From positions 1-64,000 of the forward strand of contig JAAWWF010000016.1 of NCBI GenBank assembly GCA_021404565.1: a DNA stretch of 64,000 nucleotides, given 5' to 3'. How positions within the stretch are numbered: position 1 is the first letter of the stretch; each line of letters opens with the position of its first letter. Position numbers and translations under genes: made by a program. The notes under the pieces are model-generated. The model made no database searches and was not told where the DNA came from. It worked only from the letters and a program-made list of their open reading frames with translations. Shown here one piece after another: positions 41,106-61,181 of the stretch. Source of the stretch: Roseivirga sp. (lineage in GTDB: Bacteria > Bacteroidota > Bacteroidia > Cytophagales > Cyclobacteriaceae).

Positions 41106-41389
41106 TGATTAAAGACACAAGGGGTACTCCTGATCTCCTACCCTTTTTAATAAGGGAAGTACGAGCACACTTGTGCTCTTATCTGGTTTCGTTTAACCTT
41201 CCTCTGGCTATTTGGTATAACCACTCATCAGTAAGATTCAGTTCTCCAATATATCATCTATTAAAGATCATTCACTAATAAAAAGGTCATTCAGAACAAC
41301 ATACCAATAGTTCATAACATCCATTTCTTTTTTGCACCGAGAACTACGATACTTGTCTTATCAGAACCGGACACTCTTTCTTGAAACAG
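41106..41389. other. Boundary between GAF gene and glycan locus
   Basis: No gene is supported. GAGCACA (41163-41169) pairs with TGTGCTC (41172-41178) in a hairpin near the GAF-gene end. The remainder is AT-rich and probably holds the promoter of the plus-strand glycan genes, but no box is convincing. Confidence 0.4.
41163..41178 (+). terminator. Hairpin after the GAF gene
   Basis: A 7-bp perfect stem with a 2-base loop lies about 58 bases after the GAF stop and is followed by TTATCTGGTTT. The T-richness is weak, so termination is a guess. Confidence 0.3.
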
Positions 41390-42466
41390 ATGGCAATCAA
41401 CCACAGGTTGGACGAAAATATATCGGTGATCATCCCAGTTCATGACAGAGGACCGAAGCTTGAGAGGTGCCTCAAATCACTGGCAGATTATGGAAGGGAC
41501 ATTTTTGAGACCATTGTCGTGTTGGATGGCACCTCCATAGAGAAAGACTTTTTTTTACAATACGACCTGGCAACCCTGAAAGTAGAAAGGTTAGCGCAGA
41601 ATTATGGCCCGGCCTATGCAAGAAATCACGGAGCCTCGGTGGCCTCAGGGGATTTGCTTTTTTTCATTGATTCGGATGTAGCACTCCTACCCGATACGGT
41701 AGATCAGGTAATAAGACATTTCCGGAAATCTGATGTAACAGATGCCCTGATCGGCTCTTATGATGATGCCCCGGATGAAAAAGCGCTGGTCTCGAAATTC
41801 CGCAATCTGCTCCATCACTATACCCATCAGCAGGGTCTGGCAAATGCCACCACCTTTTGGGGAGCCTGCGGAGTTATTAAAAAAGAAGTTTTCCAGGCCG
41901 TAGGAGGTTTTGATACGTCCTTTGACAAACCCAGTGTGGAAGATATCGCACTCGGCTATCGATTGAAAGAGCGGGGGTTCAGCATCAGACTGGACAAGAC
42001 ACTACAGGTAAAACACTTAAAGAAGTGGACCCTGCTGAATATGATCAAAACGGATATTTTTCTCCGTGCCCGACCCTGGACCCGGCTGCTTCACCAGTAC
42101 AAAAAGCTTGGGGTAAATGACTTGAACATCAATTATCAGGAACGGCTCGCTGTGGCTCTTTTGGCAGTAGCCATACTCAGTTTAGCTGTAAGCCTAAGCT
42201 TCCGGTTTTTATTACCGGTGGGCCTGGTTGGTCTTCTCTTTTTAGTCCTTTTTAAAAGGAAAACTTACGGATTCTTTTCAAGGCACTTCGCATGGTATCA
42301 GCTGCCGGCAATAGTGCTCCTGCACTGGATATACCTGGCCAGCGCCTTGACGGGTTTTGTCATCGCTACCAGTGACAGGCTTTTCAAGCCTAACCAAGCC
42401 GGCACAAGCGGCCTGCCCAATGAGCCGCAGACGTATGAAAAAGACAGCTTTGCCTTGAATGAATAA
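41390..42466 (+). CDS. GT2-family glycosyltransferase with C-terminal membrane spans
   Basis: A ~358-residue enzyme. The GT-A domain reads [20 protein letters not shown] at its start and [14 protein letters not shown] with the DSD metal site, followed by a WGACGVIKK...VGGFDTSF acceptor block and EDIALGYRL. Two or three spans at about 255-330 anchor it in the inner membrane. ATG 41390 is chosen; a TTG three codons upstream is possible. The gene opens the plus-strand glycan cluster and overlaps the FAD gene by eight bases. Confidence 0.85.
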
Positions 42467-44027
42467 GCCCAAAGATACCATAGTGATCATTGGAGCAGGG
42501 CCGGCTGGTTTGACTGCCGCATACGAGCTGGCTACAAAGAGTGATCATCGAATCATTGTGCTTGAAGCAGATAAGCAGGTGGGTGGGATCAGCAAGACAG
42601 TGGACTATAAAGGCAACAAAATTGATATTGGGGGGCATCGCTTTTTTTCAAAGTCTGATTGGGTATTGAATTGGTGGCAGCAATTCTTACCCATCCTCAA
42701 TGATGGCAATGAGATATTCACCACCTATCAAAATCGCCAGAAAGGTTTTAAGGCAAAGGCTTTTACCGATCGGTCTAGGCCTCATATGCTCATCCGTCCG
42801 CGTAAGTCCAGGATCTATTATCAGGGAAAATTGCTTGACTACCCCATCAAGCTCAACCTCCGCACCCTTTTTAAAATTGGCCCAGGCAAAAGCTTAAGAA
42901 TACTCGGCTCGCTGATTGCCACACGAATTAATCCCATAAGAAAAGAGGCGAACCTTGAAGACTTCTTCATCAACCGTTTTGGTAAAGAGTTATATGCGGC
43001 TTTTTTCAAAGAATACACTGAAAAAGTCTGGGGCAAACCCTGCACTGAAATCAGCCCGGAGTGGGGCAGGCAAAGGGTGAAAGGACTCAGCTTTAAAAAA
43101 ATCGTTAAGCATTATTTCACTACACTTTTCTACCCTATGCGCCAGTCTTTTGGCAACAAACAGGTAGAGCAGACGCTCACGGAGTTTTTTCTGTATCCTC
43201 AGAAAGGCCCGGGCCAGCTTTGGGAGGTTGTAGCAGAGCGCTGTATGGATTTGGGAGTAGAAATCAGAACGCGACAAAAAGTCACAGGCCTGAAAAGTGC
43301 TGGTGATTTGGTTTCTCAAATAGAGGTATCAGACGATCTTTCACAGAAAACTTATACGGTACACTGCGATCAGTTAATATCCACCATGCCAGTTAAGCAC
43401 CTCATCACCGCACTGGACAGACCAGTATCCGATGAAGTGAAAAAAGTGGCATCTGGCCTCGAATATCGCGACTTTATGATCGTAGGGCTATTACTCACAG
43501 AGCTCAAACTTAAGAATAAGGACGGGGAGCAGGTAGATGACAACTGGCTGTACATTCAGGATAAAGGATTAAAGGTAGGCCGGGTGCAGCTTTTTCATAA
43601 TTGGAGTCCGGAAATGACCGCTGATCCTGACAGCTACTGGATTGGTGCAGAGTATTTTTGCCAGGAGGGTGATGATCTCTGGACCTCCACGGATGTGCAA
43701 CTGATCGATCTGGCAGCGAAAGAACTGGCCACCATAGGTATTCTGGATGCCGACATGGTAAAAGATGGCACGGTAGTAAGAATGCCCAAGGCATATCCTT
43801 CCTATGTCGGTAGTTATGAAGATTTCGATTTGGTAAAAGATTACTTCAACAGCCTGGCCAATCTCTATCTGGTTGGCAGAAATGGCACCCATAAGTATAA
43901 CAATCAGGACCATTCCATGCTCACAGCACTGGAAGCCATCAACAATATCCTGACTAAGACCACCGGTAAGGAGAATATCTGGGCTGTAAACACTCAAAAT
44001 GAAAACCATGAAACCGTGGAAGGCTAG
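42459..44027 (+). CDS. FAD-dependent oxidoreductase of glycan locus (UDP-Galp-mutase/amine-oxidase fold)
   Basis: A 522-residue flavoprotein. The N-terminal Rossmann motif is [19 protein letters not shown] followed by [14 protein letters not shown]. The next block [13 protein letters not shown] matches flavoproteins related to UDP-galactopyranose mutase and protoporphyrinogen oxidase. The C-terminal FAD loop is [18 protein letters not shown]. Such genes are frequent in O-antigen and exopolysaccharide clusters, where they may act on a sugar nucleotide or lipid-linked glycan. Redox-neutral ring rearrangement is possible; the reaction is not known. Confidence 0.78.
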
Positions 44028-45543
44028 ATTAAAAGACCCGGCCTACTTCCTGGCAATCGCGGTAACGGCTTTCCTGGCGGTCTATCTCACCATGCCGCAG
44101 CATGAGTTTAAATACAACCCCGATGTAGGCAACAGTCCATATGGAATGGCCATCGCAAAAACCTATCAGAATATGCCTGAAAATACAGGGAATTGGGCAC
44201 GGGGTTATGTCTTGAACGGAGAGCTTACAATTTATGCCAATTGGCCACCCATGGCCTTCAAACTGCTGGCTGAGTGGTTCGAATTCACAGGCCGGGACGA
44301 TATTTACACTGCACGCATTTGGTATGCCTTGCTGTATGCTATCAATGCCTTACTGTTTTATGCTTTGTTGAAAGGGCTTAAAGTCAATACAGCCATTGCT
44401 TTCATTGCCTCAATCTCGTTTATCTTTTTACCCTCTCATTTAGACTTTGGAGCTTTGATCTACGTAGATCAGTGGCTTATTACCTTTTGGTTGCTTGCCT
44501 GGATAGCCTACTTCCAGGATAAAGTACTGTCCAAAATATTGTTCTATATCATTGTTCTGTCGGGCTTCTTGTTTTTTCACTGGTTTATTATTTTTCTCCT
44601 ACCCATACCCTTTTTGCTATTCTTACTAAAACGGTATCGGCCGGGTATTGGCCGATTGACACTGATACTTGTAGCAGTTATGGTCATCGTCTGGGCAGTT
44701 CAGTACAGTCTTTTCAGTCTCTATAAAGATTCCTATTTCTTTCAGAAATTCCGTGTCTATTCAATTTTTGGATTGGCAAGCGTTCCCGGCTCCTATCCTG
44801 TGGCACTATTAAAGCGCATTGTCTCTCTGGGTTACGAAGCAGCCGTACTCGTACCCCTATTTTTACTTGCAGGTTTCTTCTCGGTGAGACATAAACATTT
44901 TATCAAATGGCCACAACTATACAGTCTGCTCAGTGGCAACCTATTGGCTTTGATTTCATATACCATTTGCTTTGTCCACTGGTTCGGATATCACCGCCAT
45001 GGTCTGGGTATGTTTTCAATACTCATTGGAGGTGCAGTAGCATTGGGCCTTTCCTACCTAAAATCAAGATCTTTGCCCAGGTTCAGGTACGCATGTGTGC
45101 TGGTTATCTTAGTTCCCCTCTCACTTTTTATGGCATTGCCTGCGATCACGAAAGTTGCCGATGAAGTGGAGCAACAGGATGAACAAATTGCCAACTTCAT
45201 CAACGCTAATCGTACCAGTCAGGACCTGAAGGCTTGCTTGTTTTTCGATCAGCCCGGCATTGCAGGAACGCATATAGTGAGGTTTGATTTAAGTGAGTTT
45301 GCCCTTCGGGAATATACCAATGCCTACACCTTCAATTTGTATGAAATGGAAAAGCAGGTATCCATCACAGAGGACCTGAAGCACGGCATTGCGAAACTGA
45401 AAAAGAACGGCTTTGTTGATTTCGACCCTTCGCTGGTTTTTATGGTCTCAAAAAAGCACTACGAATTTGATGAGACGGTAATTACAGGCTTAAATTCCAT
45501 TGGCAAATTCAACATCTATCACCTCGATCTGACCGATTTTTGA
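43999..45543 (+). CDS. Polytopic membrane protein, possible GT-C-type glycosyltransferase
   Basis: A 514-residue protein with about ten to twelve spans. The first span ([19 protein letters not shown]) is followed by an exposed loop ([30 protein letters not shown]) as in GT39/GT-C enzymes, and the C-terminal ~110 residues are soluble. The acidic catalytic pair of GT-C enzymes is not obvious, so this is a tentative call. It overlaps the FAD gene by 29 bases and ends one base before the next GT2 gene. A polyprenyl-phosphate-sugar-dependent transferase or a flippase-like partner are alternatives. Confidence 0.6.
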
Positions 45544-45544
45544 G

Positions 45545-46402
45545 TTGAAAATTTCAGTAGTCATACCGACCTATAACCGATCCAGCCAGCTACGAGCATG
45601 TTTGACTTCGCTCAAAGAGCAAACAATCAATCTAGCATGGGAGGTAATTGTAGTGGATGATGGCGGGGATCAGGACTTGAATGGGTCAGTACAGGGGTTT
45701 AAATCAGATCTGAATATTCTACTAATCCGGCAGGAAAACCAAGGCCCTGCCACCGCCCGGAATGCTGGTGTGCAAGAAGCCAAAGGTGATTTCATTGTTT
45801 TCCTGGACGATGACTGTGAACCTCAGCCGGATTGGCTGGCCACACTCTACCCAAAGGCTCAACGCAATACAATATCAGGAGGAAAAATCGAAAATAAACT
45901 TGTCCACAACTCTTTTTCCGAGACCAGTCAGCGGTTGGTATCATTCCTTTACAGCGAATGGAAAGACACCCCCTGGTACTTCTTTACATCTAATAACTTC
46001 ATGGTCCATCGACAGACTTTTCTGCAAGCAGGGGGCTTCGATGAAAACTTCCCGACATCTGCGGGCGAAGATCGGGAGTTTTGCGCACGTTGGATCCATT
46101 TGGGAAATCAGATGGAATACGTCCCGACTGCGATTGTCAATCATGCGCACGATTTAAAACTCCGGTCTTTTTGGAAAATGCATTCTAAATATGGAGGGGC
46201 AGCTTATTTATTTGGTGGAAAAATCAAACGGTTGGGAGTCGATGCTTTAAAACCGAGAATATCGTTTTACATGCATTTATTTGGTTTTGTATTGCAACAG
46301 AAAGAGTTAGGATTTAAGAGGGCCGTATCAATTTCATTCTTGATTTTCGTTTCCCAGCTAGCGACTCTGTTTGGCCTTATGAAAGAGAAATTCAGACATT
46401 GA
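45545..46402 (+). CDS. GT2-family glycosyltransferase
   Basis: A 285-residue GT-A enzyme. It starts MKISVVIPTYNRSSQLRACL, with VIVVDDGGDQ, FLDDDCEPQPDW (DDD metal site) and GGFDENFPTSAGEDREFCAR, the usual acceptor/catalytic block. A hydrophobic C-terminal segment may touch the membrane. The start is TTG at 45545, immediately after the previous stop. It probably adds one sugar to the lipid-linked repeat. Confidence 0.84.
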   Translation: MKISVVIPTYNRSSQLRACLTSLKEQTINLAWEVIVVDDGGDQDLNGSVQGFKSDLNILLIRQENQGPATARNAGVQEAKGDFIVFLDDDCEPQPDWLATLYPKAQRNTISGGKIENKLVHNSFSETSQRLVSFLYSEWKDTPWYFFTSNNFMVHRQTFLQAGGFDENFPTSAGEDREFCARWIHLGNQMEYVPTAIVNHAHDLKLRSFWKMHSKYGGAAYLFGGKIKRLGVDALKPRISFYMHLFGFVLQQKELGFKRAVSISFLIFVSQLATLFGLMKEKFRH

Positions 46403-46414
46403 TATTATTTTAAA

Positions 46415-46663
46415 ATGAATCATAAGATTAAAGAACAAGTCAAAAGCTATATCTCTAAAGAACTAATTAGGGATAGTTTAGTCGAAATAAAGGATGACAC
46501 TGTACTGATACGAAGTGGTCTTCTTGACTCAATAAAAACCCTGCAACTCATCGCTTTTCTTGAGCAGGAGTTCAAGGTCGATTTTGAAGCACATGAAGTA
46601 GATGCCGATTATTTAGACAGCCTGATACTGATTGAAAATACTATTAAATCAAAACTCTCATGA
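46415..46663 (+). CDS. Acyl/peptidyl carrier protein (DltC-like)
   Basis: An 82-residue carrier protein. The phosphopantetheine site is Ser39 in RSGLLDSIKTLQLIAFLE, with the helix II pattern DS(I)xxLxLi(A). The 4-bp overlap with the adenylating gene (ATGA, 46660-46663) is strong evidence that the two work together: the ligase loads the carrier's thiol. The position before an MBOAT gene matches dltA-dltC-dltB logic, not fatty-acid synthesis. A 4'-phosphopantetheinyl transferase must come from elsewhere. Confidence 0.88.
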   Translation: MNHKIKEQVKSYISKELIRDSLVEIKDDTVLIRSGLLDSIKTLQLIAFLEQEFKVDFEAHEVDADYLDSLILIENTIKSKLS

Positions 46664-48189
46664 GCCATACCAATCAATTGGCAGAGCTAATCGCCCAGGC
46701 ATTTAGGAAGTTTGAGAAAAAAATAGCCTGCGATGACTTAAATCAAAGTTACACCTATCATGAATTACGACTTGAAAGCGAGAAAACAATAGGCTTTTTA
46801 CAAAAAAAACAAATCCGGGCTAAACAGAGAGTAGGTATTTGTGCCCCCAAGTCCTATGCCAGTTACGCTGCATTATTAGGTATTATTCAGTCAGGCGGAG
46901 CATATGTTCCTATAGATCCAACCTCACCCATTTCGCGCATCAATACCATCGTCAGCGATAGTAAACCTGAGGGAGTTATTGGTGAGTATGAAATACTCCA
47001 ACAGATGTCAGAACACTATAAAGACAGTGTTATTGAAGAAATACCAGGTAGTGTCTTATTCTATTTAGCACTGTCATTCGATCATAAAATGGATAGTAGT
47101 ATTCCTCCTGAGTTTGTTTGTATCCTGTATACATCGGGGTCTACCGGAAAGCCCAAGGGCGTTATGGTCACTCATGAGAATGCCTTTAGTTATGTTCAAT
47201 GGGCGGCAACATCATTGAGTTCATTCTCGGCAGAGGACGTTTTTTCTTCAGTGGCCCCATTCTACTTCGCCCTCTCCCTGTTCGATTTGTATGTTCCACT
47301 GGTTTACGGAGCACAAATTGTGTTGTTTAGCGAGAAACATATCAGGAACCCTATGGTGCTGTCTTCCGCCATAGAAAAGAAGAAAATCACAGTTTGGTAT
47401 TCTACCCCCAGTGTGCTCATGCTGATGATGCAATACGGCAAAACGGAAAGGTCTGATCATTCATCCATCAGGCTGGTATGCTATGCGGGAGAGGTATTTC
47501 CTTCAGAGTCGCTAAGGCAGCTTAGAAATAAGTGGCCAGATAAAGACATCTATAACCAGTTTGGGTCAACAGAGACGAATGTTTGTACCTCGAGAAAAAT
47601 ACCAGATGTCTTACCGGAAAATTTTGATCACAGAATAATCGGCAACGGCTGTAGCCACCTGAACTGCAAACTATTGGTGAATGACGTAATTCACGAACCA
47701 ACCATTGGTACAGAAGGAGAACTGGTTATCAGTGGTCCGGCAGTGAGTCCCGGCTATTTTGGTACGGCAGCAGAATTGAGTGGTGAAAAATTTATTACGA
47801 TCGGAGGTAATCATTGGTACAGGATGGGCGATTGGGCCATAGTTAATGATCAACAGGAATTTAAGTTGCTGGGACGGATAGATCGAATGGTTAAAAAAAG
47901 AGGGAATCGTATTGAACTTGACGAGATTGAAAAAGCAATTGCCAAACATGCCCTGGTAGACCGTTCGGGAGTGGTAACGGTACAAGCTAAAGACGAGCTG
48001 GTCATAAAAGCCTTTATCGAGACTGTCCCTGATGCTGAAGGGTTTGACTTAGAAGATTTACAGCGTTTTGTGAGAGATCAATTGCCAAACTATATGATAC
48101 CTGATGTATGGGGTAGGCTGGATAAGATACCACTGACCAGTACACATAAAATAGATTATCAAAGTCTTAAGGCCATGGACAATCCTTGA
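46660..48189 (+). CDS. DltA-like adenylating enzyme loading the carrier protein
   Basis: A 509-residue ANL-superfamily ligase of the amino-acid-adenylation type. A3 is LYTSGSTGKPKGV (near 156), A5 is NQFGSTETNV, A7 is YRMGDW, A8 is LGRIDRMVKKRGNRIELDEI, and the A10 Lys is Lys497 in THKIDY. The overall alignment with DltA is clear (VAPFYFALSLFDLYVPL against DltA's APFSFDLSVMDLY). But the Asp that holds the substrate's amino group is Ala204, and the Cys that selects D-Ala is Ala276 in CYAGEVF. The substrate therefore probably lacks an alpha-amino group, or is bound differently. No condensation or thiolation domain is fused. Confidence 0.88.
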   Translation: MSHTNQLAELIAQAFRKFEKKIACDDLNQSYTYHELRLESEKTIGFLQKKQIRAKQRVGICAPKSYASYAALLGIIQSGGAYVPIDPTSPISRINTIVSDSKPEGVIGEYEILQQMSEHYKDSVIEEIPGSVLFYLALSFDHKMDSSIPPEFVCILYTSGSTGKPKGVMVTHENAFSYVQWAATSLSSFSAEDVFSSVAPFYFALSLFDLYVPLVYGAQIVLFSEKHIRNPMVLSSAIEKKKITVWYSTPSVLMLMMQYGKTERSDHSSIRLVCYAGEVFPSESLRQLRNKWPDKDIYNQFGSTETNVCTSRKIPDVLPENFDHRIIGNGCSHLNCKLLVNDVIHEPTIGTEGELVISGPAVSPGYFGTAAELSGEKFITIGGNHWYRMGDWAIVNDQQEFKLLGRIDRMVKKRGNRIELDEIEKAIAKHALVDRSGVVTVQAKDELVIKAFIETVPDAEGFDLEDLQRFVRDQLPNYMIPDVWGRLDKIPLTSTHKIDYQSLKAMDNP

Positions 48190-48279
48190 AAGGTACATGT
48201 GCTCGTTGTTTTGACTCGAATTGTAATTACTTCCGGAGTTATCAGACGAAGAAATTTTCTATGATATCCTTATTATCAA

Positions 48280-50727
48280 GTGCTAAACATCCATAATTCT
48301 TCCTTAAAACCAGTGCTCTCAATATCCTTCCAACTATTGATAATGGGAGGATTCATTCATCATTTCAATATTGAGGAACAATTCCATTTGCCTCTCTTTT
48401 TTCCATGGATTGGGGCTGCCTTTCTAATTCACTTTGTATCCCCTAAACCCTACCGTCAATGGGTATTTGTATTGGCTACGATTGCCGGCACATTCTTTTT
48501 ACTGTCTTTTTGGGAATCATTGACCTTGATCGGAATAGCCTTTGGCATGATCGGAATCACCAATCTGCGTATTGATCTCAGATGGAGAAAATGGATACTC
48601 CTTGTAGTTGCCGGCTTACTCGTATATGCCCGGATGAACCCAATCAATGGATGGCTTTCATCTTCCGTACTGACCATACTGGGTAGCATTTTCATGTTCA
48701 GAATGTTGGTCTTTTTGTACGAGATCAAACACCAAAAACAACCTGTTTCCTTTGTCACACAGATCAGCTATTTTTTCATGCTACCCAATTTGGTATTTCC
48801 ATTGTTCCCGGTGGTAGACTTTAAACTATTTCACAGGCAGTATGATGCAGGCAAAGATCCGGCTGTTTATCAAAGAGGTATTTTGCTTATGGCAAAAGGA
48901 ATATTTTTTCTATTTGTCTATCGAATGATTTATTCATTCCTGCTTCCGGTGAGTGCCGAAATAGATTCACTCAATTCGCTGGTCGCCTATATGAGCATCG
49001 CCTACTTGTTGACCATCAGATTAGCCGGAATTTTCCATTTTTCGGTCGGGGCCTTACACCTATTTGGCTATCGTCTTCCCGATGTTTTTAACAACCATTT
49101 TTTTGCATCGGGCTTCGGAGACTTATGGAGAAGAATCAATATTTACTGGAAGGACTTTATCATCAAACTGTATTTCAATCCATTTTTCTTCCGCTTCAAA
49201 AAATACGGTATCAAAACCGCCATTGCTTTGGCCACCATATTTTCGTTTGTCATCACCCTGTTATTTCATCAATACCAGACTTTCTGGATTACAGGCGTTT
49301 GGCAAATTGGAGCAAAAGACATGGTTTTTTGGGGCTTCTTTGGGCTTGCCGTCATGATTGGCAGCTTATGGCAAAATGATATCCATAAGAAAGACACCTT
49401 CTTAGGTTCCATTGTTTTGAGTGGAAGGATCATACTTACCTTTTTAACGGTATCAGTCCTTTGGTCCGTCTGGTCTGCTCAAAGCCTGTCAACCTGGTAT
49501 GGCATGGCAAAACTTACTCAAGAGGTGCCCACTGTCGAATGGATTGTTTTTACAGGCATTTTGGTGGTAATGGCTTTCGCTGGTGGAGCTGGCCATCATT
49601 TATCAAAGGGTATCAGTATGGCAGATTTCAACAAAGTAGCTGGTTTCTTTCCTTTGGCTCTTTTGGTTATGTTGGTTATGGGTTTTAATCGATTGACTTT
49701 GGACAAATTCTGGAATGAAAGATTAACGGAAAGCACCATCGAGTCTATTTTTTATCAGACGCTCAACGAAGATGACCTGGAGCAACAAACAGCCGGATAC
49801 TATGATGATATACTCCAAAGCGGCAATGTATTGAGTACCCGAACTCAGGAAAGAGAGGTTGCTTTATATGCGAAGGAATTTGAGAAAACGGGCATTGTCC
49901 AAAAATCCCAAACGCCTATTGAACGTAGATTTACTCCCAATTTTCATTTGACTTTTCAAGGAATTGACTTTGATATTAATCAATGGGGCATGCGTGATAA
50001 ACCCTATAACCAAACCCCTCCGCCAGGTGTAACCCGAATGGCCATGGCCGGATCTTCTATTGAAATGGGATCGAGAGTCAAGAAAGAATTGATTTTTGAA
50101 AGCATATTAGAAGAGAGGCTGAATTATGATGCTTCCGTGAAAGCTGATTCAATTGAACTGTTGAATTTTTCTGTCTATGCCAGAGAAATCGCACAGCAGG
50201 CGCATTTGATAAAATCTGAGCTCGTTGATTTCAAACCACAATACCTGCTCATCTTTCATCATTATGAAGACTGGGGGATTCTTAAAAGTACTATCAGGCG
50301 CCTGAAAACAATTAATTATGACTACGCTTTGTTTCAGGAAGCTTACGATAAGCTTGAGGACAGCTATGGCCGGTTGTCTGTCTTAAATCCACTGGAAATT
50401 GAAATACTCAATGGGCTACATGCCGATGTCTATGAAACCTGCATTTCAAATGGTATACAACCCATTTTAGTCATGATGCCCACACTAAAACCGCAGAGAG
50501 ATTTCCGGGAAAGAAAGAGTAAGTTAGACGAGGTATCGGACCAGGCATCTGAGATAGGGTATAAAGTAATTGATTTAAGGGCTGCCTATAAGGGCTTTGA
50601 CCCTGCTTCATTGCGTATTAGCCATAATGATTATCATCCGAATGCGATGGGGCATAAATTATTGGCAGACAAACTGGAGCCGGTCTTGAGGAAACTGATA
50701 ATTAATAAAGAACAACCCTTTCGCTGA
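48280..50727 (+). CDS. MBOAT O-acyltransferase fused to an SGNH/GDSL-like domain (DltB-DltD-like)
   Basis: An 815-residue membrane protein with about ten to twelve spans in its first ~480 residues. The MBOAT core has DLWRRINIYWKDFIIKLYFN (AlgI/DltB 'DFWRRWHISL' position) and an active-site His in LLFHQYQ near 330. A soluble C-terminal part (about 510-815) has an SGNH-like block I, MAMAGSSIEMGS near 590, and a terminal NDYHPNAMGH. Thus one chain joins a DltB/AlgI-type acyltransferase to a DltD/AlgX-type hydrolase fold. The start is GTG 48280; an ATG at 48343 is possible. It follows the carrier and ligase genes and very likely uses the carrier-bound acyl group. Confidence 0.8.
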   Translation: MLNIHNSSLKPVLSISFQLLIMGGFIHHFNIEEQFHLPLFFPWIGAAFLIHFVSPKPYRQWVFVLATIAGTFFLLSFWESLTLIGIAFGMIGITNLRIDLRWRKWILLVVAGLLVYARMNPINGWLSSSVLTILGSIFMFRMLVFLYEIKHQKQPVSFVTQISYFFMLPNLVFPLFPVVDFKLFHRQYDAGKDPAVYQRGILLMAKGIFFLFVYRMIYSFLLPVSAEIDSLNSLVAYMSIAYLLTIRLAGIFHFSVGALHLFGYRLPDVFNNHFFASGFGDLWRRINIYWKDFIIKLYFNPFFFRFKKYGIKTAIALATIFSFVITLLFHQYQTFWITGVWQIGAKDMVFWGFFGLAVMIGSLWQNDIHKKDTFLGSIVLSGRIILTFLTVSVLWSVWSAQSLSTWYGMAKLTQEVPTVEWIVFTGILVVMAFAGGAGHHLSKGISMADFNKVAGFFPLALLVMLVMGFNRLTLDKFWNERLTESTIESIFYQTLNEDDLEQQTAGYYDDILQSGNVLSTRTQEREVALYAKEFEKTGIVQKSQTPIERRFTPNFHLTFQGIDFDINQWGMRDKPYNQTPPPGVTRMAMAGSSIEMGSRVKKELIFESILEERLNYDASVKADSIELLNFSVYAREIAQQAHLIKSELVDFKPQYLLIFHHYEDWGILKSTIRRLKTINYDYALFQEAYDKLEDSYGRLSVLNPLEIEILNGLHADVYETCISNGIQPILVMMPTLKPQRDFRERKSKLDEVSDQASEIGYKVIDLRAAYKGFDPASLRISHNDYHPNAMGHKLLADKLEPVLRKLIINKEQPFR

Positions 50728-50756: not shown

Positions 50757-51407
50757 ATGAGAATGGGAATAAAAAAACAAGTTGTTATCACAGGAACCGG
50801 TAGAGCCGGTACTACCTTCTTAATGGAGTTGTTGACTCATTTAGGCCTGGATACCGGGTTTTCATCCCATGAAATAGAAGTGCATAAAGACAAGGTTTCT
50901 AATGCCGGACTTGAAAAGAATGTAGGAGAATCTCCCGGTGCCTACATTATGAAAGATCCTTCTTTTGTAGACTATGCAGAGGAGCTACTGGTTAGAGATG
51001 ACATTTGCCTAGAACATGTTTTTGTTCCAATGAGGGATATAACAGCCGTTTCCGATAGCAGGAGAGCCAATCAAAAAGCTCATTTTGGTAGGCTTTCGCT
51101 GAGAGAGAAGTTACGATATTTCAGAAAACCATACCTGTTGTATGGAGGGCTGTTACATACCACTTCTTCGAAAAAGGGAGCTCAGGAAGAGGTCCTGATG
51201 AAGAAGTTATTTGATCTGCTATTTAGTCTGTCCAAGTATCAAGTCCCTGTGACGTTTATTCAGTTTCCGTATCTTCTTTCGCACCCCAAATATTTGTACA
51301 ACAAACTTGAACCAGTGCTAAAGGACGTTTCATATGAAGTTTATCTAAAGACTTTTGAAACCTTATCCGACCCTGAGAAACCTCGAAATTTCAATTTGGG
51401 AAAATAA
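50757..51407 (+). CDS. P-loop sulfotransferase-like protein
   Basis: A 216-residue protein with a 5' P-loop, ITGTGRAGTTFLMELLTHLG (near 11-30), matching the PAPS-binding 5'-PSB loop of sulfotransferases (GxxRSGTT). 'IMKDPSF' and 'VPMRDITAVSDSRRAN' stand where the 3'-phosphate-binding region (R...S) lies. It is short for the family (250-320). A glycan 6-O- or 2-O-sulfotransferase is possible; a kinase-like P-loop protein is an alternative. It lies between the MBOAT gene and the ABC exporter. Confidence 0.6.
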   Translation: MRMGIKKQVVITGTGRAGTTFLMELLTHLGLDTGFSSHEIEVHKDKVSNAGLEKNVGESPGAYIMKDPSFVDYAEELLVRDDICLEHVFVPMRDITAVSDSRRANQKAHFGRLSLREKLRYFRKPYLLYGGLLHTTSSKKGAQEEVLMKKLFDLLFSLSKYQVPVTFIQFPYLLSHPKYLYNKLEPVLKDVSYEVYLKTFETLSDPEKPRNFNLGK

Positions 51408-51417
51408 GAAAATCGAT

Positions 51418-52236
51418 ATGAAAGGTTACGTGGTATCAAATCGCTCAAAAGTCATTGAGGAGCTCAGGAGCCTTCCTCAATACAAGGAGTTATTTCTTAC
51501 TCTGGTTTGGAAAAATCTGCGGCTTCAATACCAAAGTGTTGTTTTAGGTTTGATTTGGGGAGTAGTGTTTCCATTGTTGATGTCGGGCATTTTCTTTTTT
51601 GCTCTTGGCAGCAGGCTGGGGTCCGACTTTTCAGATTATTTCATCTTTCTATTTTCGGGTTTTATATTCTGGAATGTGTTCGCGAGCAGTTTGATTCAGT
51701 CTGCCAACTGCATGATACAAGAACACGAAATGCTCAAGAAGGTATACTTTCCCCGGCTGTTATTGCCATTATCATTTGTGGCTGCTAAGCTTTTGGACTT
51801 ACTCATTACCCTGGTCATTCTTACAGGAATATTGGTGTTCATAGAAATGGATATTCACTGGCCGGCCTATTTAGGAGTTTCCTTGCTATCCGTATTGTTC
51901 CTTGTATTGATGGCAGCAGGTTTTTGTCTCTCATTTTCAGTGCTCCTCGTCAGGTTCAGAGGGCTTCAGGTGATTTACCCGATTATTATACAGGCGATCA
52001 TTTTTACTTCTTCGGTGATCTATGAAAGTAATCTGACGATAGAAAATGAGGTGATCAGGTTCTTATTTCAATTGAACCCTATCACCGTTATTCTGAAGCC
52101 TTTTCGCGAGGTGATTTTCTTCGGTGAAATTCACTTCACTTCACTTTTTATGGCTTTCTGTTTTTCCACAGCAATTTGCTTTTCTGGCCTTCTTTGGTTC
52201 AAACTGGAAGATAAAAATCTGATAGACCGATTGTGA
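51418..52236 (+). CDS. Polysaccharide ABC exporter, membrane subunit (Wzm/KpsM type)
   Basis: A ~272-residue ABC-2 permease with six spans. It starts MKGYVVSNRSKVIEEL, has the family block YKELFLTLVWKNLRLQYQSV...LGLIWG (near 25-50), and carries the late FRFLFQLNPITVILKPFRE-type stretch before the last span. ATG 51418 is preferred, because an upstream frame start would overlap the sulfotransferase-like gene. It exports the lipid-linked glycan across the inner membrane with the ATPase gene two bases after its stop. Confidence 0.9.
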   Translation: MKGYVVSNRSKVIEELRSLPQYKELFLTLVWKNLRLQYQSVVLGLIWGVVFPLLMSGIFFFALGSRLGSDFSDYFIFLFSGFIFWNVFASSLIQSANCMIQEHEMLKKVYFPRLLLPLSFVAAKLLDLLITLVILTGILVFIEMDIHWPAYLGVSLLSVLFLVLMAAGFCLSFSVLLVRFRGLQVIYPIIIQAIIFTSSVIYESNLTIENEVIRFLFQLNPITVILKPFREVIFFGEIHFTSLFMAFCFSTAICFSGLLWFKLEDKNLIDRL

Positions 52237-52238
52237 GG

Positions 52239-52868
52239 ATGATGTTATCTGTAGAAAATATAAGCAAATACTACACAATTAAAGACCCGGTAACGGGTAA
52301 ACATCGCCCCTTCTGGGCGTTGAGAGAAGTGTCTTTTGAGTTGGAAAAAGGCGCCTGTATTGGGTTAACAGGAGTAAATGGTGCTGGTAAATCTACCCTG
52401 CTCAAGATCATCAGTCGCATCGTGACACCAACTTCGGGACAAGTAAGAACCTATGGCAGTGTTGTTCCCCTACTCGAACTCGGTGCTGGCTTTCACGATG
52501 AACTTACCGGAAGGGAAAACGCCTATATCTACTCTTCGCTCATAGGAATCAAAAGGAAAGAGCTCAGGCAAAAACTGGATGACATTGTTGATCTGGCCGG
52601 AGTAGGCCTTTTTCTGGATACAAAAGTCAGAGGGTATTCCAATGGAATGAAAATGCGCCTGGCATTTAGTATTGCAAGTCACTTAAAACCTGACATACTG
52701 TTGGCAGATGAGATTCTGGCGGTAGGCGATGAGGATTTTCAAAAACTATGTTTGCAAAAGATCCTTGAATTGAAAAATGAAGGCACTTCCATCATTATGG
52801 TCCAGCACAACCGCGAGTTGATTGAGAAATTATGCGACCGTACCATTGTCCTCAAAAAAGCAGACTGA
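52239..52868 (+). CDS. Polysaccharide ABC exporter, ATPase subunit (Wzt/KpsT type)
   Basis: A ~209-residue ATPase. Walker A is GVNGAGKST; the ABC signature is GYSNGMKMRLAFSIA; Walker B is DILLADEILAVGDEDF; the switch His is in MVQHNREL. The start of the nucleotide-binding domain (KYYTIKDPVTGKHRPFWALR) is typical of Wzt. The chain stops right after the ATPase core, so it lacks the ~200-residue C-terminal carbohydrate-binding domain of Wzt proteins that read a chain terminator. Export thus resembles the KpsMT/TarGH style. It ends the plus-strand arm. Confidence 0.92.
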   Translation: MMLSVENISKYYTIKDPVTGKHRPFWALREVSFELEKGACIGLTGVNGAGKSTLLKIISRIVTPTSGQVRTYGSVVPLLELGAGFHDELTGRENAYIYSSLIGIKRKELRQKLDDIVDLAGVGLFLDTKVRGYSNGMKMRLAFSIASHLKPDILLADEILAVGDEDFQKLCLQKILELKNEGTSIIMVQHNRELIEKLCDRTIVLKKAD

Positions 52869-52884
52869 GATACGTATCATACCC

Positions 52885-53886
52885 TTACTTCACTTCGGCA
52901 GAAACAATGCCATCCTTTAGAAAGCGCTGACTTACCCGTTTTGTCCACTCTTCAATTACTACCTCTTTGGGGTGTCCATCGTCTCTAAATGTATTGTTTT
53001 CATTTAAGGAGACCCTACTGTCGATATAGGCAATGTTATTTTGATCAAGAAACTCCTGAAGCCCTGACAACATGAGTTTTTCACAGTGCAATAGATTTAC
53101 ATAAAAAGGAATATCAAGTTTGGAACACAGATCATGCATTTCTGATAAAAGAAGCTCTAAAACCTCATCTGTATCATGAATTCTACGATATCCTGAAATA
53201 TTATTGATGGCTCTTTGGAGCAAAAAACTGCTTGCCAAATGTTTATGCAAGGGAAGTCTCAAATACTTAACAGGTTTACCTTCAATAAGCTTTTTATCCT
53301 TTGTCAAGGTTACAAAAGGGATATACACCTGCTCGTTACCTGACTTATTTGAATTAATCGCAAGAGAGCCAAGCCAATCTGCCTGTGCTACATTCCTTTG
53401 CCTATGATGACTCATAAAACCATAGATTACGGCTTTTGGCTTTTTTGAATGCTCTAGCCGCTTCCTTAGAACGAGGAGAGACTGATAGGTGCCGTAGCCA
53501 CCTACCCCCAGGTTTCTGATATTCACTGACGGAAATTCTTGTTGTAGCTTCCATGGAAGGGTTTGCTCATCATCAAGTCCTGCCCCCATGGTAAATGATC
53601 CTCCGATAAACAGGACTTGATCCAAATTCCCGGGAATGGGTTCTGGTTTTGTCAGGCGCTCGCCATACCGGTCTATAGTCAGGTTCATGGTATCTCCCCA
53701 GATATTCACAGGGAACCTGTAGGTTCCGGGAGTTTGAGTCCATCCCAAATGAGCATTGGGCTCGTAAAATGATATGGCTTGTGGCCGTTCAGGAGGAGGG
53801 CCATAACCCATAAGTCTCAGCGTCAGTTCTAAGACAACTAAGGCAATGAGCAGTATATATATGATTCTTTTTAAGTAGACTTTCAT
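52885..53886 (-). CDS. SGNH/GDSL-like membrane-anchored protein, paralogue A
   Basis: A 333-residue protein with one N-terminal span (YILLIALVVLELTLRLMG) and a periplasmic SGNH-like domain. Block I is FIGGSFTMGAG (nucleophile Ser), block II/III NLGVGGYGTYQS, and the terminal acid-His pair DDGHP (Asp three before His), so the catalytic set looks intact. A family-wide feature is YGFMSHHRQRN...VAQADWL. It shares this order with the genes at 56758 and 62280. It may transfer or remove acyl groups on the exported glycan. It converges with the Wzt gene. Confidence 0.78.
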   Translation of the reverse strand: MKVYLKRIIYILLIALVVLELTLRLMGYGPPPERPQAISFYEPNAHLGWTQTPGTYRFPVNIWGDTMNLTIDRYGERLTKPEPIPGNLDQVLFIGGSFTMGAGLDDEQTLPWKLQQEFPSVNIRNLGVGGYGTYQSLLVLRKRLEHSKKPKAVIYGFMSHHRQRNVAQADWLGSLAINSNKSGNEQVYIPFVTLTKDKKLIEGKPVKYLRLPLHKHLASSFLLQRAINNISGYRRIHDTDEVLELLLSEMHDLCSKLDIPFYVNLLHCEKLMLSGLQEFLDQNNIAYIDSRVSLNENNTFRDDGHPKEVVIEEWTKRVSQRFLKDGIVSAEVK

Positions 53887-53910: not shown

Positions 53911-55632
53911 TCACAGGCTCAATTCATTTATTTCCTGAATGCTTTGATTTCTTTTTCTTCCGGATAAAAGTTCAGTCAGTTTATCACGATCGACTAATTC
54001 AACAATAATATCGTGGTCGTCCTGATGGTATTTTGATAGGGTATACTTGTTATCCAGTGCCAGATCTTCATCCGGAAAGTCATCTCTGAAAAAACACCCA
54101 CGACTTTCTTGTCTAATAATAGATGAACGCATAATTGCCTCACCGGTCGTTAAGTAGGCGACTGCATCATCGAGTATTTGATTTTTGCTCAGGAGCATAT
54201 GGCGCTTGTCTTTAATCCAGTCTGCGAATTGCGTAGCCTGTTTTTGATTCATATTGCTCTCCTGATATCTCTGTAAGCCATTCTGAACTTTTCTCAGTAT
54301 CGATGCATCAAAGTGCGAAAGTTGAATTTCCAGATCAAAGGCGCTTTTGATTATATCACTTTGGCCTCTTAATAATGAGATTTGCTGAGCTATCACTTTA
54401 GCTGCACATAAATAAAGGGCCCAAGGTAAGCCACCGACACGAAATGCTCCGAAATCGTGCATGACTTCGCCACAAACAAACACATTTTTTAAGCTGGTCC
54501 CAAAATTATGATGGGCTATTCCTCCCATTGAAAAATAGGAGATCTGACGAATTCTGCTGTTATCAGTTTGACAGTGATCGTTTATAAGCTCTTTAACCTT
54601 ATTGAAAAGCTCAAAATTATACACCAGGGCTTGGTTATATACTCCCTGAAGTATCTTTCGCAATTCTGAAGCACGATCTGTGTTGGCAAACTCCAATAGT
54701 CTGTTGATGACTTCATTGCCCTCTGGGGTCTGAGAACTGAGTTTTTTCAGACCAGTATGAAATTCACGATAACGAAAATCAACGAAATATTTCTTTCCTT
54801 CTTCCTTCCGCCAGGCCATTTGTGCCTGGAAGTGATTATTCGTTCCTCTCTCGTAAAACAATTCCTTTTCCAGCCATTCCAGATGGGTGCCATTTTCATC
54901 ATATATTTCAACGCCCGGTAGTTCTTCAGTGGGGGTAAGCATTCCCATATCCGGTTGTCCGTAGCCATGTTTGAATACAAACTCCATGTTAGACAAAATA
55001 CCGCCAGCCATCAGCATGCGACCGTGGATTGAACCGTAAGTTCCCGACTTTACTGCACCCTGAAAAAGACCTGCATAACCACCCGAGGCGAGCACGATAA
55101 ATTGAGCACTAATGGCTCCTATTGATCCTTGTCGTTGATATTGGATACCTTGACAAATGCTTTCACGGGTAATGATCCGGGTAACCCAGGCATCGTTGAG
55201 TACTTTACCCCCCAGGTTTATTATTTCAAGAAAAAGGCGCTCTAAAAGTATCTGACCAGAGCCTGATTTTAAGGATACGCCAAGGGCAATTTTCTTTAGG
55301 GGATCAAACTCCTGTAACTCTTCCAGCTCAGCCGACAGGTTTTCGGTAATGATATCGGCAATGTCCGGGTTTTCTTGCCCTTGCCCGAGGGTATTGAGCC
55401 ATTGTGTATAATCCGACCTGGTCTGAGAAGAAGTATTTATGGCTCCGGCAGAAATCTTTGACGCACCAAGTTTTCCTCCGCGATCCAACTTGTCGTAGTG
55501 AATCACAACAGTTGGAATGCCCATTCGAAGTAGCTTAATGGCAGTCCAACAACCCGCTATACCAGCACCTACAATCACAGTTGAGGTTTTTATCATGTCA
55601 ACGAGCTGGATGTTTTTCATCTGGTTTCCCAT
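53911..55632 (-). CDS. FAD-binding flavoprotein (fumarate-reductase/L-aspartate-oxidase-like)
   Basis: A 573-residue flavoprotein. The FAD motif is STVIVGAGIAGCWTAIKLLR, followed by GGKLGASKISAGAIN (FAD-loop block of the SdhA/FrdA/NadB family). 'EVMHDFGAFRVGGLPWALYL' forms the second FAD block. It lacks the CxxC/heme or Fe-S partner sites and has no signal peptide. Its neighbours are SGNH proteins, so it could oxidise or desaturate a sugar or lipid, but a separate metabolic role is as likely. It starts 15 bases after the upstream SGNH gene, so it is in the same minus-strand unit. Confidence 0.75.
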   Translation of the reverse strand: MGNQMKNIQLVDMIKTSTVIVGAGIAGCWTAIKLLRMGIPTVVIHYDKLDRGGKLGASKISAGAINTSSQTRSDYTQWLNTLGQGQENPDIADIITENLSAELEELQEFDPLKKIALGVSLKSGSGQILLERLFLEIINLGGKVLNDAWVTRIITRESICQGIQYQRQGSIGAISAQFIVLASGGYAGLFQGAVKSGTYGSIHGRMLMAGGILSNMEFVFKHGYGQPDMGMLTPTEELPGVEIYDENGTHLEWLEKELFYERGTNNHFQAQMAWRKEEGKKYFVDFRYREFHTGLKKLSSQTPEGNEVINRLLEFANTDRASELRKILQGVYNQALVYNFELFNKVKELINDHCQTDNSRIRQISYFSMGGIAHHNFGTSLKNVFVCGEVMHDFGAFRVGGLPWALYLCAAKVIAQQISLLRGQSDIIKSAFDLEIQLSHFDASILRKVQNGLQRYQESNMNQKQATQFADWIKDKRHMLLSKNQILDDAVAYLTTGEAIMRSSIIRQESRGCFFRDDFPDEDLALDNKYTLSKYHQDDHDIIVELVDRDKLTELLSGRKRNQSIQEINELSL

Positions 55633-55647
55633 GGAGGTTTATATTGA

Positions 55648-56751
55648 CTAAAAAACATTATAGATTAGATCGGCCAGGCGTTTGTTAAATTCATCGGTAG
55701 GATGGCCATCTCCTGGAATAAACAGACCAACATCCTGCCTGTCTTTTAATAAAGCCTCATTTACATAAATGAACTGAATGCCTTGTTCTTCTAAATATAG
55801 CAACACTCTTTTCCTTACATCTTTGTAATGCTTGGCAAATAATGTATCAGACCCTGTTGTGTTCTGAACCAAGACAGTGAACTCAAATCCCTGCTCCCTG
55901 AGCAATTGATCAGTCTCCTTGATAAGTCTTAAAATCAACTCAAGCTCCTTCTGTCTACTAGCCACCCTGGGTTTTATTCGGGTGAAAATGCCAGAATTCG
56001 TCCAGACAAATTTCCAATATTTCATTACCAATGAGTGGGTATTTTTTTGTTCGTCAAACGTACCTGTATGTTTGAGCTTTCCATTTTCTACAATGTACCT
56101 GATACTCTTTTGGTCCCATGGTGAATAGCCGTTTGCTCTCAGTATATGCGGATCGATAAACCAGTAAAAGATTTCTACATTTTCTGAGGCATGCAAAGCT
56201 GAATCCGTGGCAAGATGGTTTTTGGCAATAGTATATACCTGATGAGTTCCATATCCATGAAAACCGTAGTTTCTGATATTCCTCTTTTGGCTATAAAGTT
56301 GATTATAATAGTAGGGTAATGTCTCTGTATCATTTATGCCTTCACCAAAGGTAAAGGACCCTCCCAGAAAAATGCTGTATCGCTGGCTGGTAGTATCTGA
56401 GCCGGGGGTAACCCTTCTGCCATCAGCAAAGGAGTAATAGGCATCATAGATTTCTTCACCTGATTTTATCCAGCTCTTTGTAGCCCTCGCAGAAAAAGAA
56501 CTGTCGCTCACTCCGTAGCCTAATTCAGGGTTGGTTGTATAATAAGGTTCTTGATACTCAATTTTTGATTGCGGTATGTTGTCGATAGTCAGGTATAGCT
56601 CAAGAATAAACAGGACAATGAAAATGGCAGAAATATTGAAGAACAGATGCTTGATAAGGCTCTTCTTGGACCGGAGCCCAACCCATATTATAAAGACACT
56701 GCATATTAGCAGCATCAATTCAAGACCATAAATAGCTAAAAAATCCCTCAT
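55648..56751 (-). CDS. SGNH/GDSL-like membrane-anchored protein with two N-terminal spans
   Basis: A 367-residue protein. It has two closely spaced spans (residues about 8-25 and 34-52), then an exported SGNH-like domain. Block I is IFLGGSFTFGEG, block III IRNYGFHGYGTHQV, and the terminal pair is in GDGHPTDEF. A WKFVWTNSGIF stretch and late QGIQFIYVNEAL keep the family pattern. It is more distant from paralogues A-C but clearly related. It lies six bases after the paralogue at 56758. Confidence 0.75.
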   Translation of the reverse strand: MRDFLAIYGLELMLLICSVFIIWVGLRSKKSLIKHLFFNISAIFIVLFILELYLTIDNIPQSKIEYQEPYYTTNPELGYGVSDSSFSARATKSWIKSGEEIYDAYYSFADGRRVTPGSDTTSQRYSIFLGGSFTFGEGINDTETLPYYYNQLYSQKRNIRNYGFHGYGTHQVYTIAKNHLATDSALHASENVEIFYWFIDPHILRANGYSPWDQKSIRYIVENGKLKHTGTFDEQKNTHSLVMKYWKFVWTNSGIFTRIKPRVASRQKELELILRLIKETDQLLREQGFEFTVLVQNTTGSDTLFAKHYKDVRKRVLLYLEEQGIQFIYVNEALLKDRQDVGLFIPGDGHPTDEFNKRLADLIYNVF

Positions 56752-56757
56752 AATTTG

Positions 56758-57753
56758 TTAGTATGACAAATCTGTAATACCATCCGAGATGAGTCGTTTT
56801 GCAATTCTTTCCACCCAAATATCATTAACACTCTCATCGGGATGCCCATCATCTTTGATGCTGTTGTCCCTGGTCAATGGAACATGGCAATCAATAAAAC
56901 GAATGTTGCTTTCATCTAAAAAAGGTCTAAGGTATTTCATGTCCTCAGGAAGATAGTGCAATGTGGCCACATAGAATACGATGCCATATTCTCGACATAG
57001 ACGCTGCATTTCTCTGATGATGAGGTGAGTGAGTTTTTGAGCATCTTTTACCCGTTTAAAGGAACGCGACCAGTTCACTACTCTTTCTGCCAAAGATGCT
57101 AAGGCGAGCTTTTCTGTGAGGCGGAGATTATACATTCCCACTGATTCGTTTCTTTGGAATGTACTGTCATTTTGAAGGGTAACATAAGGGATTTTTCTTC
57201 TGAGCTGCATCAACCAGGCGCCCTGCGCAACGTTCCGCAATTGATGATGTTGAAAAGCCCCATAAATTACGCACTTGGGCCGGTTACCTTTTTTTAGTTC
57301 ATCTTCCAACACAAGAAGGGACTGAAAAGTACCGTAGCCACTAACAGCAAGATTGCGAAAATCTGAATGTGGAAAACGTTGCTGAAGCTTCCACACGGCC
57401 GTCTCATTATCATCTAATCCGTACCCCATCATGTATGACCCGCCAATGAAAGTTATTTGATCATCCCCAACACCATTATTATCTATCCTTGTGACTCTGC
57501 CCGTGTCTTTTTTAATGGTAATGGACATTGAATCTCCTATATCGTTGAAAGGGCCAATTTCGTAATCACCAGGGATCAATTTCCAGCCCAAATCCTTATC
57601 AAATTCATGACTCTTGGTCTGACTGACAGGAGCTACAGGTTTGAAAGGTCTATACCCCATTGATCTCAACACTACCTCCAGCATTACCACTATCAGCAGG
57701 CCTGAGAGCGATATAACGATCAATAATTTCAAAGGCTTTCTACGCACAATCAA
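56758..57753 (-). CDS. SGNH/GDSL-like membrane-anchored protein, paralogue B
   Basis: A 331-residue protein with one N-terminal span (LLIVISLSGLLIVVMLEVVL) and the shared domain: FIGGSYMMGYG, NLAVSGYGTFQS, YGAFQHHQLRNVAQ, and KDDGHPDESV at the end. The Ser, Asp and His needed for catalysis are present. It is most similar to paralogue A in the central part (VAQGAWL against VAQADWL). It precedes the gene at 55648 in the same unit. Confidence 0.78.
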   Translation of the reverse strand: MIVRRKPLKLLIVISLSGLLIVVMLEVVLRSMGYRPFKPVAPVSQTKSHEFDKDLGWKLIPGDYEIGPFNDIGDSMSITIKKDTGRVTRIDNNGVGDDQITFIGGSYMMGYGLDDNETAVWKLQQRFPHSDFRNLAVSGYGTFQSLLVLEDELKKGNRPKCVIYGAFQHHQLRNVAQGAWLMQLRRKIPYVTLQNDSTFQRNESVGMYNLRLTEKLALASLAERVVNWSRSFKRVKDAQKLTHLIIREMQRLCREYGIVFYVATLHYLPEDMKYLRPFLDESNIRFIDCHVPLTRDNSIKDDGHPDESVNDIWVERIAKRLISDGITDLSY

Positions 57754-61006: not shown

Positions 61007-61181
61007 AAAGCATTAAACAAACCTGAAAGAAAACCGACTTTGTCTCAGTTATCCACTTATAACCGCCTCGAACAGCAGTCAGCTGATTTCATTTTGTCAT
61101 CCAGCTATTTTTTTGAGGTCGAATTTGTATTTAATTGCTGTTCAATCCAAAAGATCAGGGCACCGGTGTAAAGGCGGGTTT

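Follow-up and report, generated by a model that had tools for sequence, protein, structure and literature searches.

What acid is loaded onto the carrier protein of a three-gene acyl-transfer cassette in Roseivirga sp., and to what is it passed on? The cassette lies at positions 46415-50727 of the window, by which we mean the whole stretch of 64,000 nucleotides analysed here (positions 1-64000 of contig C77, beginning at contig base 1, in G000, the window's own genome, of 8.57 Mb and 98% complete). An initial annotation had read it as a Dlt-like system with a pocket unsuited to D-alanine, and its layout was borne out: a carrier, a ligase and a large membrane protein stand in tandem on the plus strand within a glycan-export locus. 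The coupling it proposed applies to carrier and ligase, whose stop and start overlap by 4 nucleotides, and does not extend to the membrane protein, which begins with a GTG after a gap of 90 nucleotides from the ligase stop. We put at roughly 0.58 the probability of the following reading: the cassette comes from the family of pyrrole modules, its ligase has been retooled, and a carrier-loaded small carboxylic acid without an alpha-ammonium group would be esterified onto an exported glycan. The features on which this reading draws are these.

46415..46663, plus strand: carrier protein, 82 residues (PF00550, 22.8 bits against a cut-off of 20.8), with the likely phosphopantetheine Ser39 in GLLDS at 46529-46531
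46660..48189, plus strand: stand-alone adenylating ligase, 509 residues, assigned to the prolyl-carrier-ligase lineage from models, alignments and tree; pocket ALFYCAQVCK
47269..47271, plus strand: codon of Ala204, at the amino-binding Asp position (DltA Asp197; Asp235 in GrsA numbering), from alignments
47485..47487, plus strand: codon of Ala276, at the position of DltA Cys268, where the prolyl lineage commonly has Ala, from alignments
47566..47568, plus strand: codon of Ser303 in motif A5, a position held by Pro in 16/16 Asp-type ligases of the ligase alignment
48280..50727, plus strand: putative MBOAT-SGNH fusion, 815 residues (MBOAT about residues 55-441 as aligned, SGNH about 580-800), from profile matches and homologue alignment
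49267..49269, plus strand: codon of His330, on the invariant MBOAT histidine in the profile-profile alignment and in the seven-row homologue alignment
49795..49803, plus strand: codons of Gly506-Tyr507-Tyr508 in a GYY[DE] motif invariant in 7/7 homologues, a candidate acyl-tyrosine shuttle
50056..50058, plus strand: codon of Ser593, candidate SGNH nucleophile (GxS), in 7/7 homologues
50635..50637, plus strand: codon of His786, candidate SGNH catalytic histidine, in 7/7 homologues

Ranked at full length against solved structures, the ligase comes closest to a two-domain linear gramicidin synthetase and then to the L-prolyl-carrier ligase 6o6e (E = 3.1e-68), the best DltA following at 1.2e-55; over residues 191-312, which hold the pocket, 6o6e takes first place (2.2e-24 versus 1.4e-14 for DltA). 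For comparison within the family, 19 stand-alone ligases were aligned: the window's own; six of the eight places listed in one genome search (the two left out being the window's own and one embedded in a non-ribosomal peptide synthetase, or NRPS, of G099); those of G479, G693 and G659; that of G804, taken from its fetched locus and not among the listed matches of the search that gave the preceding three, being either outside the sample or below the threshold; and eight of 30 listed plasmid matches, 2,895 plasmid records having matched the ligase search. Eight NRPS rows were added (seven from the window's own genome and one from G099), and L008, L012 and L021 were left out of the tree and of all counts. 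In the window's genome, many NRPS frames, of up to 6,963 residues, also crowd a contig of 77 kb (C35; L006-L011). In the tree, which had no DltA rows, the window ligase is sister to that of G012, a member of the same genus (support 100/99), within a nine-row branch (95/95) whose ligases, the window's apart, all have an acyl-CoA dehydrogenase (ACAD) in the fetched neighbourhood. These results suggest descent from the L-prolyl-carrier lineage (PltF/RedM/PigI), yet we do not file the enzyme as a prolyl ligase because Ala204 replaces the amino-binding Asp, the equivalent of Asp235.

HMMER alignment to the Bacillus cereus DltA (3fcc/3dhv) placed Ala204 on Asp197 and Ala276 on Cys268, residues whose roles in the D-alanine pocket are set out in a passage of PMC8972799; neither is kept in the window enzyme. 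The first substitution, as the initial annotation had it, is a genuine anomaly, and it stands out when the pocket is aligned across homologues. The second aligns as annotated and is family-typical: each of the 19 stand-alone ligases has Ala or Gly in this column, for which reason Ala276 was rejected as evidence of an unusual substrate, and prolyl ligases have Ala there as well. Nor are all catalytic motifs retained, as had been claimed, since A5 has FGSTE in place of YGPTE and Met replaces the Thr of TGD in A7; in all, the enzyme departs at 6 of the 49 columns that are invariant in the 16 Asp-type ligases (P19E, D204A, Y301F, P303S, T389M and V393A). Another acidic residue filling the amino site would, by the annotation's own account, have told against it; none of the ten code positions (ALFYCAQVCK) is acidic. 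Seven of these ten residues are those of the code DLFYLALVCK, found in Microvirga and Mycetohabitans, the changes being Asp to Ala, Leu to Cys and Leu to Gln. This code and that of G804 (DLLYLALVCK) equal or resemble what we take to be the prolyl-ligase code of pyrrole pathways, a code not found in the literature searched.

The loss of the Asp coincides with that of the A5 proline, in 3/3 ligases without the Asp as opposed to 0/16 of those with it (Fisher p = 0.001, relatedness ignored; the 16 Asp-type rows, two of them near-identical Mycetohabitans rows, are not independent). The two ligases that share the double loss, those of G034b and G075, are sisters on the tree and carry Gly for Asp and Thr for the proline. 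No MBOAT-SGNH match was found by the 147-genome search in the genomes of the ligases with these two substitutions (L029 9615-11450 and L032 3003-4568). A dehydrogenase at least 34% identical to that of G012 is present in the fetched stretch, which varied from 5.8 to 84 kb, of 15 of the 16 Asp-type ligases and of none of the three others. Around the window cassette, homologues of the dehydrogenase and halogenase of G012 were found neither in the window nor in the 16 kb that follow it (80 kb examined), and the closest dehydrogenase of the window's genome, the best of eight matches, is 32% identical and has acryloyl-CoA reductase, of another subfamily, as its best model. Because the losses of Asp204 and of the A5 proline at 303 go together, and because the partner enzyme, the prolyl-carrier dehydrogenase, is missing, the acid probably has no free alpha-ammonium group, in line with what had first been supposed. 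In sections of PMC11253843, hydroxy- and keto-acid domains are described with an aliphatic residue in place of Asp235, a rule also given in a passage of PMC10949194, and the keto-acid domain StsA_A has Ile306 together with Met415, the latter where the A5 proline is lost and where the change M415P abolishes activity. With Ala204 and Ser303, the window ligase displays the same pattern.

The history of the third gene, followed through samples of 390 genomes of the order and 395 of the phylum and through 72,556 plasmid records, places the cassette among relatives that carry more. The full-length fusion occurs in the order sample only in the window's genome and G012, in the phylum sample in G804, G479 and G693 besides the window's genome, and among the plasmids once, in the alphaproteobacterium Microvirga sp. 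VF16. Left out of this holder count, from a search of 147 relatives, were a complete 372-residue stand-alone SGNH-type protein in G055, an ordinary 448-residue MBOAT-type protein in G114 and the second match of the window's genome, an ordinary MBOAT; plasmid matches to the SGNH part only (seven Ensifer records in one search and six in another) were likewise left out, and a distant Crocinitomix locus from one contig scan was not used in counts. All five holders besides the window have a carrier, a related ligase and a dehydrogenase whose best NCBIfam matches are the PigA/RedW prolyl-carrier dehydrogenases. In all five (G012, G804, G479, G693 and Microvirga) the dehydrogenase contains a WER glutamate, absent from a second, distant enzyme of G034a, which we take to be the catalytic ACAD glutamate; that residue and the logic of acyl carrier protein, ligase and ACAD are described in part of PMC10849742. 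On the tree, a single branch, with one change of state, separates the ligases of the six fusion holders from the rest (support 89/94, not starred). The window carrier is 47% identical to that of G012, scoring higher with the ornithine-lipid carrier model ACP_for_OlsHI (62.9 bits; cut-off 130) than with DltC (26.9 bits; cut-off 68), below both cut-offs.

The arrangement of these genes varies. In G012 the order is carrier, ligase, PigA/RedW-like prolyl-carrier dehydrogenase, halogenase-like protein, glycosyltransferase genes and MBOAT-SGNH gene, in a locus partly syntenic with the window and adjoined by a PorP/SprF type IX secretion protein, from which the phylum is taken to be Bacteroidota. Module and fusion lie within about 9-11 kb of each other in G012 and G804, the distance in G804 being about 11 kb, and the G804 module includes a halogenase-like protein 45% identical to that of G012; both halogenase-like proteins carry WxWxIP, and the best solved match of the G012 one is PltA. 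In Microvirga, the MBOAT-SGNH gene and the carrier-ligase-dehydrogenase genes are divergent neighbours in a locus with glycosyltransferase-like genes; the cassette genes of this plasmid, pMVF16-2 (L053 1428-7697), have no annotation in the plasmid table. The G693 module is on a different contig from the fusion, close to the contig end; on contig C66 of that genome (L047 9781-15093) the MBOAT-SGNH gene is present as a tandem pair, 48% identical to each other, not far from a contig end. Because five of five relatives have carrier, related ligase and PigA/RedW-like dehydrogenase, and two of them also a halogenase, their cassettes probably esterify glycans with (halo)pyrrole-2-carboxylate made on the carrier from proline, with halogenation in those two. 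Three further loci (L030, L059 and L067) contain carrier-ligase-dehydrogenase modules and a common related membrane protein, with no MBOAT-SGNH in the fetched stretches, the L059 module adjoining a polysaccharide export gene; these modules may have other transferases as partners.

The third protein had been annotated as an MBOAT, an assignment that stands as a remote profile match, and its C-terminal SGNH domain had been missed; we read the 815-residue protein as a fusion of MBOAT and SGNH domains. When the fusion family, as a six-row alignment, was compared by hhalign with the four Pfam-positive MBOATs of the same genome, the match had 94% probability at E = 1.1e-7; WRRINIY was aligned to the MBOAT motif WRRWHIS and His330 to the invariant His. 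Pairwise, the window protein matches one of these four MBOATs at 4.1e-4 and a G693 copy does so at 3e-8 over 222 residues. The C-terminal SGNH part is sub-threshold in Pfam (PF00657, 18.5 bits against a cut-off of 23.6; PF13472, 16.3 against 32.9), and a solved-structure profile search with the fusion gave five weak SGNH/GDSL-type matches, the best at E = 0.029. Across seven rows including the Microvirga homologue, 77 positions are invariant, among them His330, GYY 506-508, Gly591, Ser593 and His786.

With genes, families, linkage and conserved residues as observed, the chemistry would run as follows. The ligase would adenylate the acid and hand it to the phosphopantetheine on Ser39 of the carrier; the MBOAT part, with His330, would accept the acyl group from the carrier on the cytoplasmic side; the group would then move outside to Ser593 of the SGNH domain, probably by way of an invariant Tyr of the GYY motif; and the SGNH domain would place it on the sugar polymer that the adjacent glycosyltransferases build and the ABC transporter exports. 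The best reading remains, as first proposed, transfer to a glycan along an MBOAT route that depends on a carrier.

Several observations weigh against it. Both ends of the reaction, that is the acid, its acceptor and the bond between them, are predicted, and the carrier is proposed as donor to the MBOAT from co-occurrence, although in G479 module and fusion are unlinked, the one at 3.9 Mb and the other at 1.0 Mb on a contig of 4.5 Mb (a distance of 1.6 Mb if the contig is circular). The MBOAT assignment is itself remote and Pfam-negative: a Pfam search of the 815-residue protein gave no PF03062 match at E up to 1. The acyl-shuttle motif FXYXXF is not present in the window fusion in the seven-homologue alignment, GYY[DE] being invariant instead; since it lies beyond the last hydrophobic segment, we regard it as a candidate substitute. 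Alignment-free AlphaFold models had a mean pLDDT (predicted local distance difference test) of 31.7 for the ligase and 40.2 for the MBOAT-SGNH protein, and the module proteins do not reach the equivalog cut-offs of the NCBIfam models closest to them. As for the pocket, the Asp was lost just twice independently on the tree, which is not enough for a phylogenetic test to reach significance; one Asp-type ligase, that of P. xiamenensis, has no dehydrogenase within 5 kb, and G075, where the Asp is lost, has a 24% identical acyl-CoA dehydrogenase relative on a contig of 5.8 kb. Finally, loss of the Asp need not by itself exclude an amino acid substrate, to judge by McyG, which according to the excerpted PMC11253843 activates Phe with Val at that position.

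Which acid would fit? Because the ligase lost both the Asp and the A5 proline and no dehydrogenase accompanies it, the most likely substrate is an acid that lacks an alpha-ammonium group and does not have to be oxidised once on the carrier. Our first choice, a tentative one held at about one chance in three, is pre-formed pyrrole-2-carboxylate or a similar planar acid, which fits well in being planar, free of ammonium and already oxidised, the sister MBOAT being expected to carry pyrrolyl groups. An alpha-keto acid, the other leading candidate, comes close behind, with a quarter of the weight or so, and alpha-hydroxy or other acids thereafter. Hydroxyproline breakdown can yield pyrrole-2-carboxylate. 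On another contig of the window's genome (C7; L071 5899-14673) there is a hydroxyproline-catabolism-like cluster with two Pro_racemase-family genes and what, by inspection, are presumably flavin adenine dinucleotide (FAD) oxidoreductase, aldehyde-dehydrogenase-like and dihydrodipicolinate-synthase-like genes; it is a possible source of the free acid.

The alternative that survives best makes the ligase an alpha-keto-acid (or alpha-hydroxy-acid) adenylating enzyme, so that the glycan would gain a keto- or hydroxyacyl ester. We consider it less likely than not, though the strongest of the competing accounts: the joint change of Asp235 to an aliphatic residue and loss of the A5 proline is shared with StsA_A, in the description excerpted from PMC11253843, and by this analogy a keto acid would match the pattern better than pyrrole-2-carboxylate does, and would need no dedicated supply. 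On the other side, the carrier, ligase and fusion genes include no ketoreductase-like partner, the seven conserved pocket residues are those of the prolyl-type Mycetohabitans and Microvirga enzymes, for which proline is the substrate expected, an acid with no keto analogue, and pyrrolyl groups are expected for the sister MBOAT.

Rather less probable is that the MBOAT-SGNH protein works as an O-acetyltransferase with acyl-CoA as its donor and that the carrier-ligase pair makes an unrelated soluble product in a shared locus. Other MBOAT/SGNH systems use acyl-CoA, as passages of PMC12148441 relate, and the parts do lie apart in G479 (1.0 and 3.9 Mb of the 4.5 Mb contig); against this, both parts co-occur in 6/6 holders, in two phyla and several arrangements, with the holders' ligases on one branch. 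Slightly below this in our estimate comes a ligase that still takes proline or another amino acid, its amino group held by the backbone or by Gln300, with oxidation elsewhere or none. The case of McyG, which binds Phe with Val at the Asp position (PMC11253843, as excerpted), and the prolyl-like remainder of the pocket speak for it; the Asp is nevertheless retained in 16/18 other stand-alone ligases and was lost jointly with the A5 proline and the dehydrogenase. A Dlt-type D-alanylation system, suggested by the gene order and by the presence of all four Dlt activities (carrier, ligase, MBOAT and SGNH), is very improbable; Dlt membership was rejected and descent from Dlt is not supported: the ligase scores 272 bits with the DltA model TIGR01734 (cut-off 559.85), the carrier is below the DltC cut-off, Asp197 and Cys268 are both substituted in a pocket nearer to 6o6e, the ligase groups with those of pyrrole modules (in a tree lacking a DltA row), and DltA is above cut-off in 0/148 phylum genomes.

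The preferred reading, a small non-amino acid esterified onto an exported glycan, also draws on the glycosyltransferases and the exporter among the genes on either side of the cassette.

41381..42466, plus strand: family 2 glycosyltransferase (Pfam), syntenic with G012
42459..44027, plus strand: FAD amine-oxidase-fold protein (Pfam), syntenic with G012
43999..45543, plus strand: polytopic membrane protein of no Pfam family, syntenic with G012
45545..46402, plus strand: family 2 glycosyltransferase (Pfam), adjoining the carrier on its 5' side; the G012 homologue is directly 5' of the MBOAT-SGNH gene
51355..52868, plus strand: ABC-2 permease and ATPase, probable polysaccharide exporter, syntenic with G012

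Within the glycan locus, at 53911-55632 on the minus strand, a further FAD protein shows weak likeness to L-aspartate oxidase and succinate dehydrogenase flavoproteins and has no homologue among the G012 locus proteins compared; as a guess, it could supply an oxidised acid, for example a keto acid. On the 3' side of the cassette there are also stand-alone proteins with weak GDSL matches or mutual similarity, at 52885-53886, 55648-56751, 56758-57753, 59795-61006 and 62280-63275 on the minus strand and at 61113-62258 on the plus strand; those at 62280-63275 and 56758-57753 share 38% identity.

Two kinds of known system are joined here. Thiotemplated pyrrole-2-carboxyl modules, such as PltF/PltE/PltL/PltA of pyoluteorin, PigI/PigA, RedM/RedW, Bmp1-4 and CloN3-5, resemble the window in the stand-alone ligase of the same lineage and the free carrier, and resemble its relatives in the dehydrogenase and, in two, the PltA-like halogenase; they differ in that the window has neither dehydrogenase nor amino-binding Asp, and in serving small-molecule assembly lines, whereas transfer to a glycan through an MBOAT-SGNH protein is expected here. 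Dlt (DltA, DltC, DltB, DltX and DltD) has the same ligase, carrier, MBOAT and SGNH activities, and differs in its ligase lineage, the fused MBOAT-SGNH, the acid expected and the Gram-negative host. The nearest known chemistry is that of clorobiocin, where a carrier-made pyrrole-2-carboxyl group is esterified to the hydroxyl of noviose (CloN1 and CloN7; excerpt of PMC11218499): the bond is likewise a pyrrole ester on a sugar hydroxyl, but CloN7 acts on the sugar of an antibiotic and a membrane MBOAT would act on an exported glycan here. PatA/PatB peptidoglycan O-acetylation and other MBOAT/SGNH pairs share the MBOAT and SGNH logic with the conserved His and Ser; PatA/PatB are two proteins with acetyl-CoA as donor, and the acyl-tyrosine motif FXYXXF, which the part of PMC12148441 concerned reports in PatA and other bacterial MBOATs, is the one absent from the window protein. 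AlmEFG of Vibrio cholerae, which glycylates lipid A (passage in PMC12930378), is likewise a Gram-negative stand-alone ligase and carrier decorating an envelope glycolipid, set apart by its description through glycine and transfer by AlmG. StsA_A of cereulide synthesis, alike in the aliphatic residue for Asp235 and the lost A5 proline (PMC11253843, in part), belongs to a multidomain synthetase, and the likeness is drawn from the published description.

Carrier-dependent MBOAT/SGNH acylation, from Dlt, and pyrrole modules, from antibiotics, are thus already known; new are the union of pyrrole module and MBOAT-SGNH at glycan loci, the fused transferase and the rebuilt ligase of the window copy. 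No published description of such a cassette, or of pyrrole-glycan decoration, was found in searches of open-licence PMC papers. We would give somewhat less than even odds to the broader proposal that the window's phylum and an alphaproteobacterium have a second carrier-dependent MBOAT-SGNH system besides Dlt, placing (halogenated) pyrrole-2-carboxylate esters on exported glycans, and that the window branch has rebuilt its ligase for a free non-amino acid and dropped the oxidation enzymes. Were this true, the rule given in excerpts of PMC12148441, by which Dlt is alone among MBOAT/SGNH pathways in having a carrier, would be widened by a Gram-negative class that combines a carrier with a fused transferase; the pyrrole chemistry of natural products, halogenation included, would be tied to cell-surface glycans; and the window ligase would be a natural case of an adenylating enzyme changing substrate class in few steps, in a route small enough, at three proteins, to be testable in vitro.

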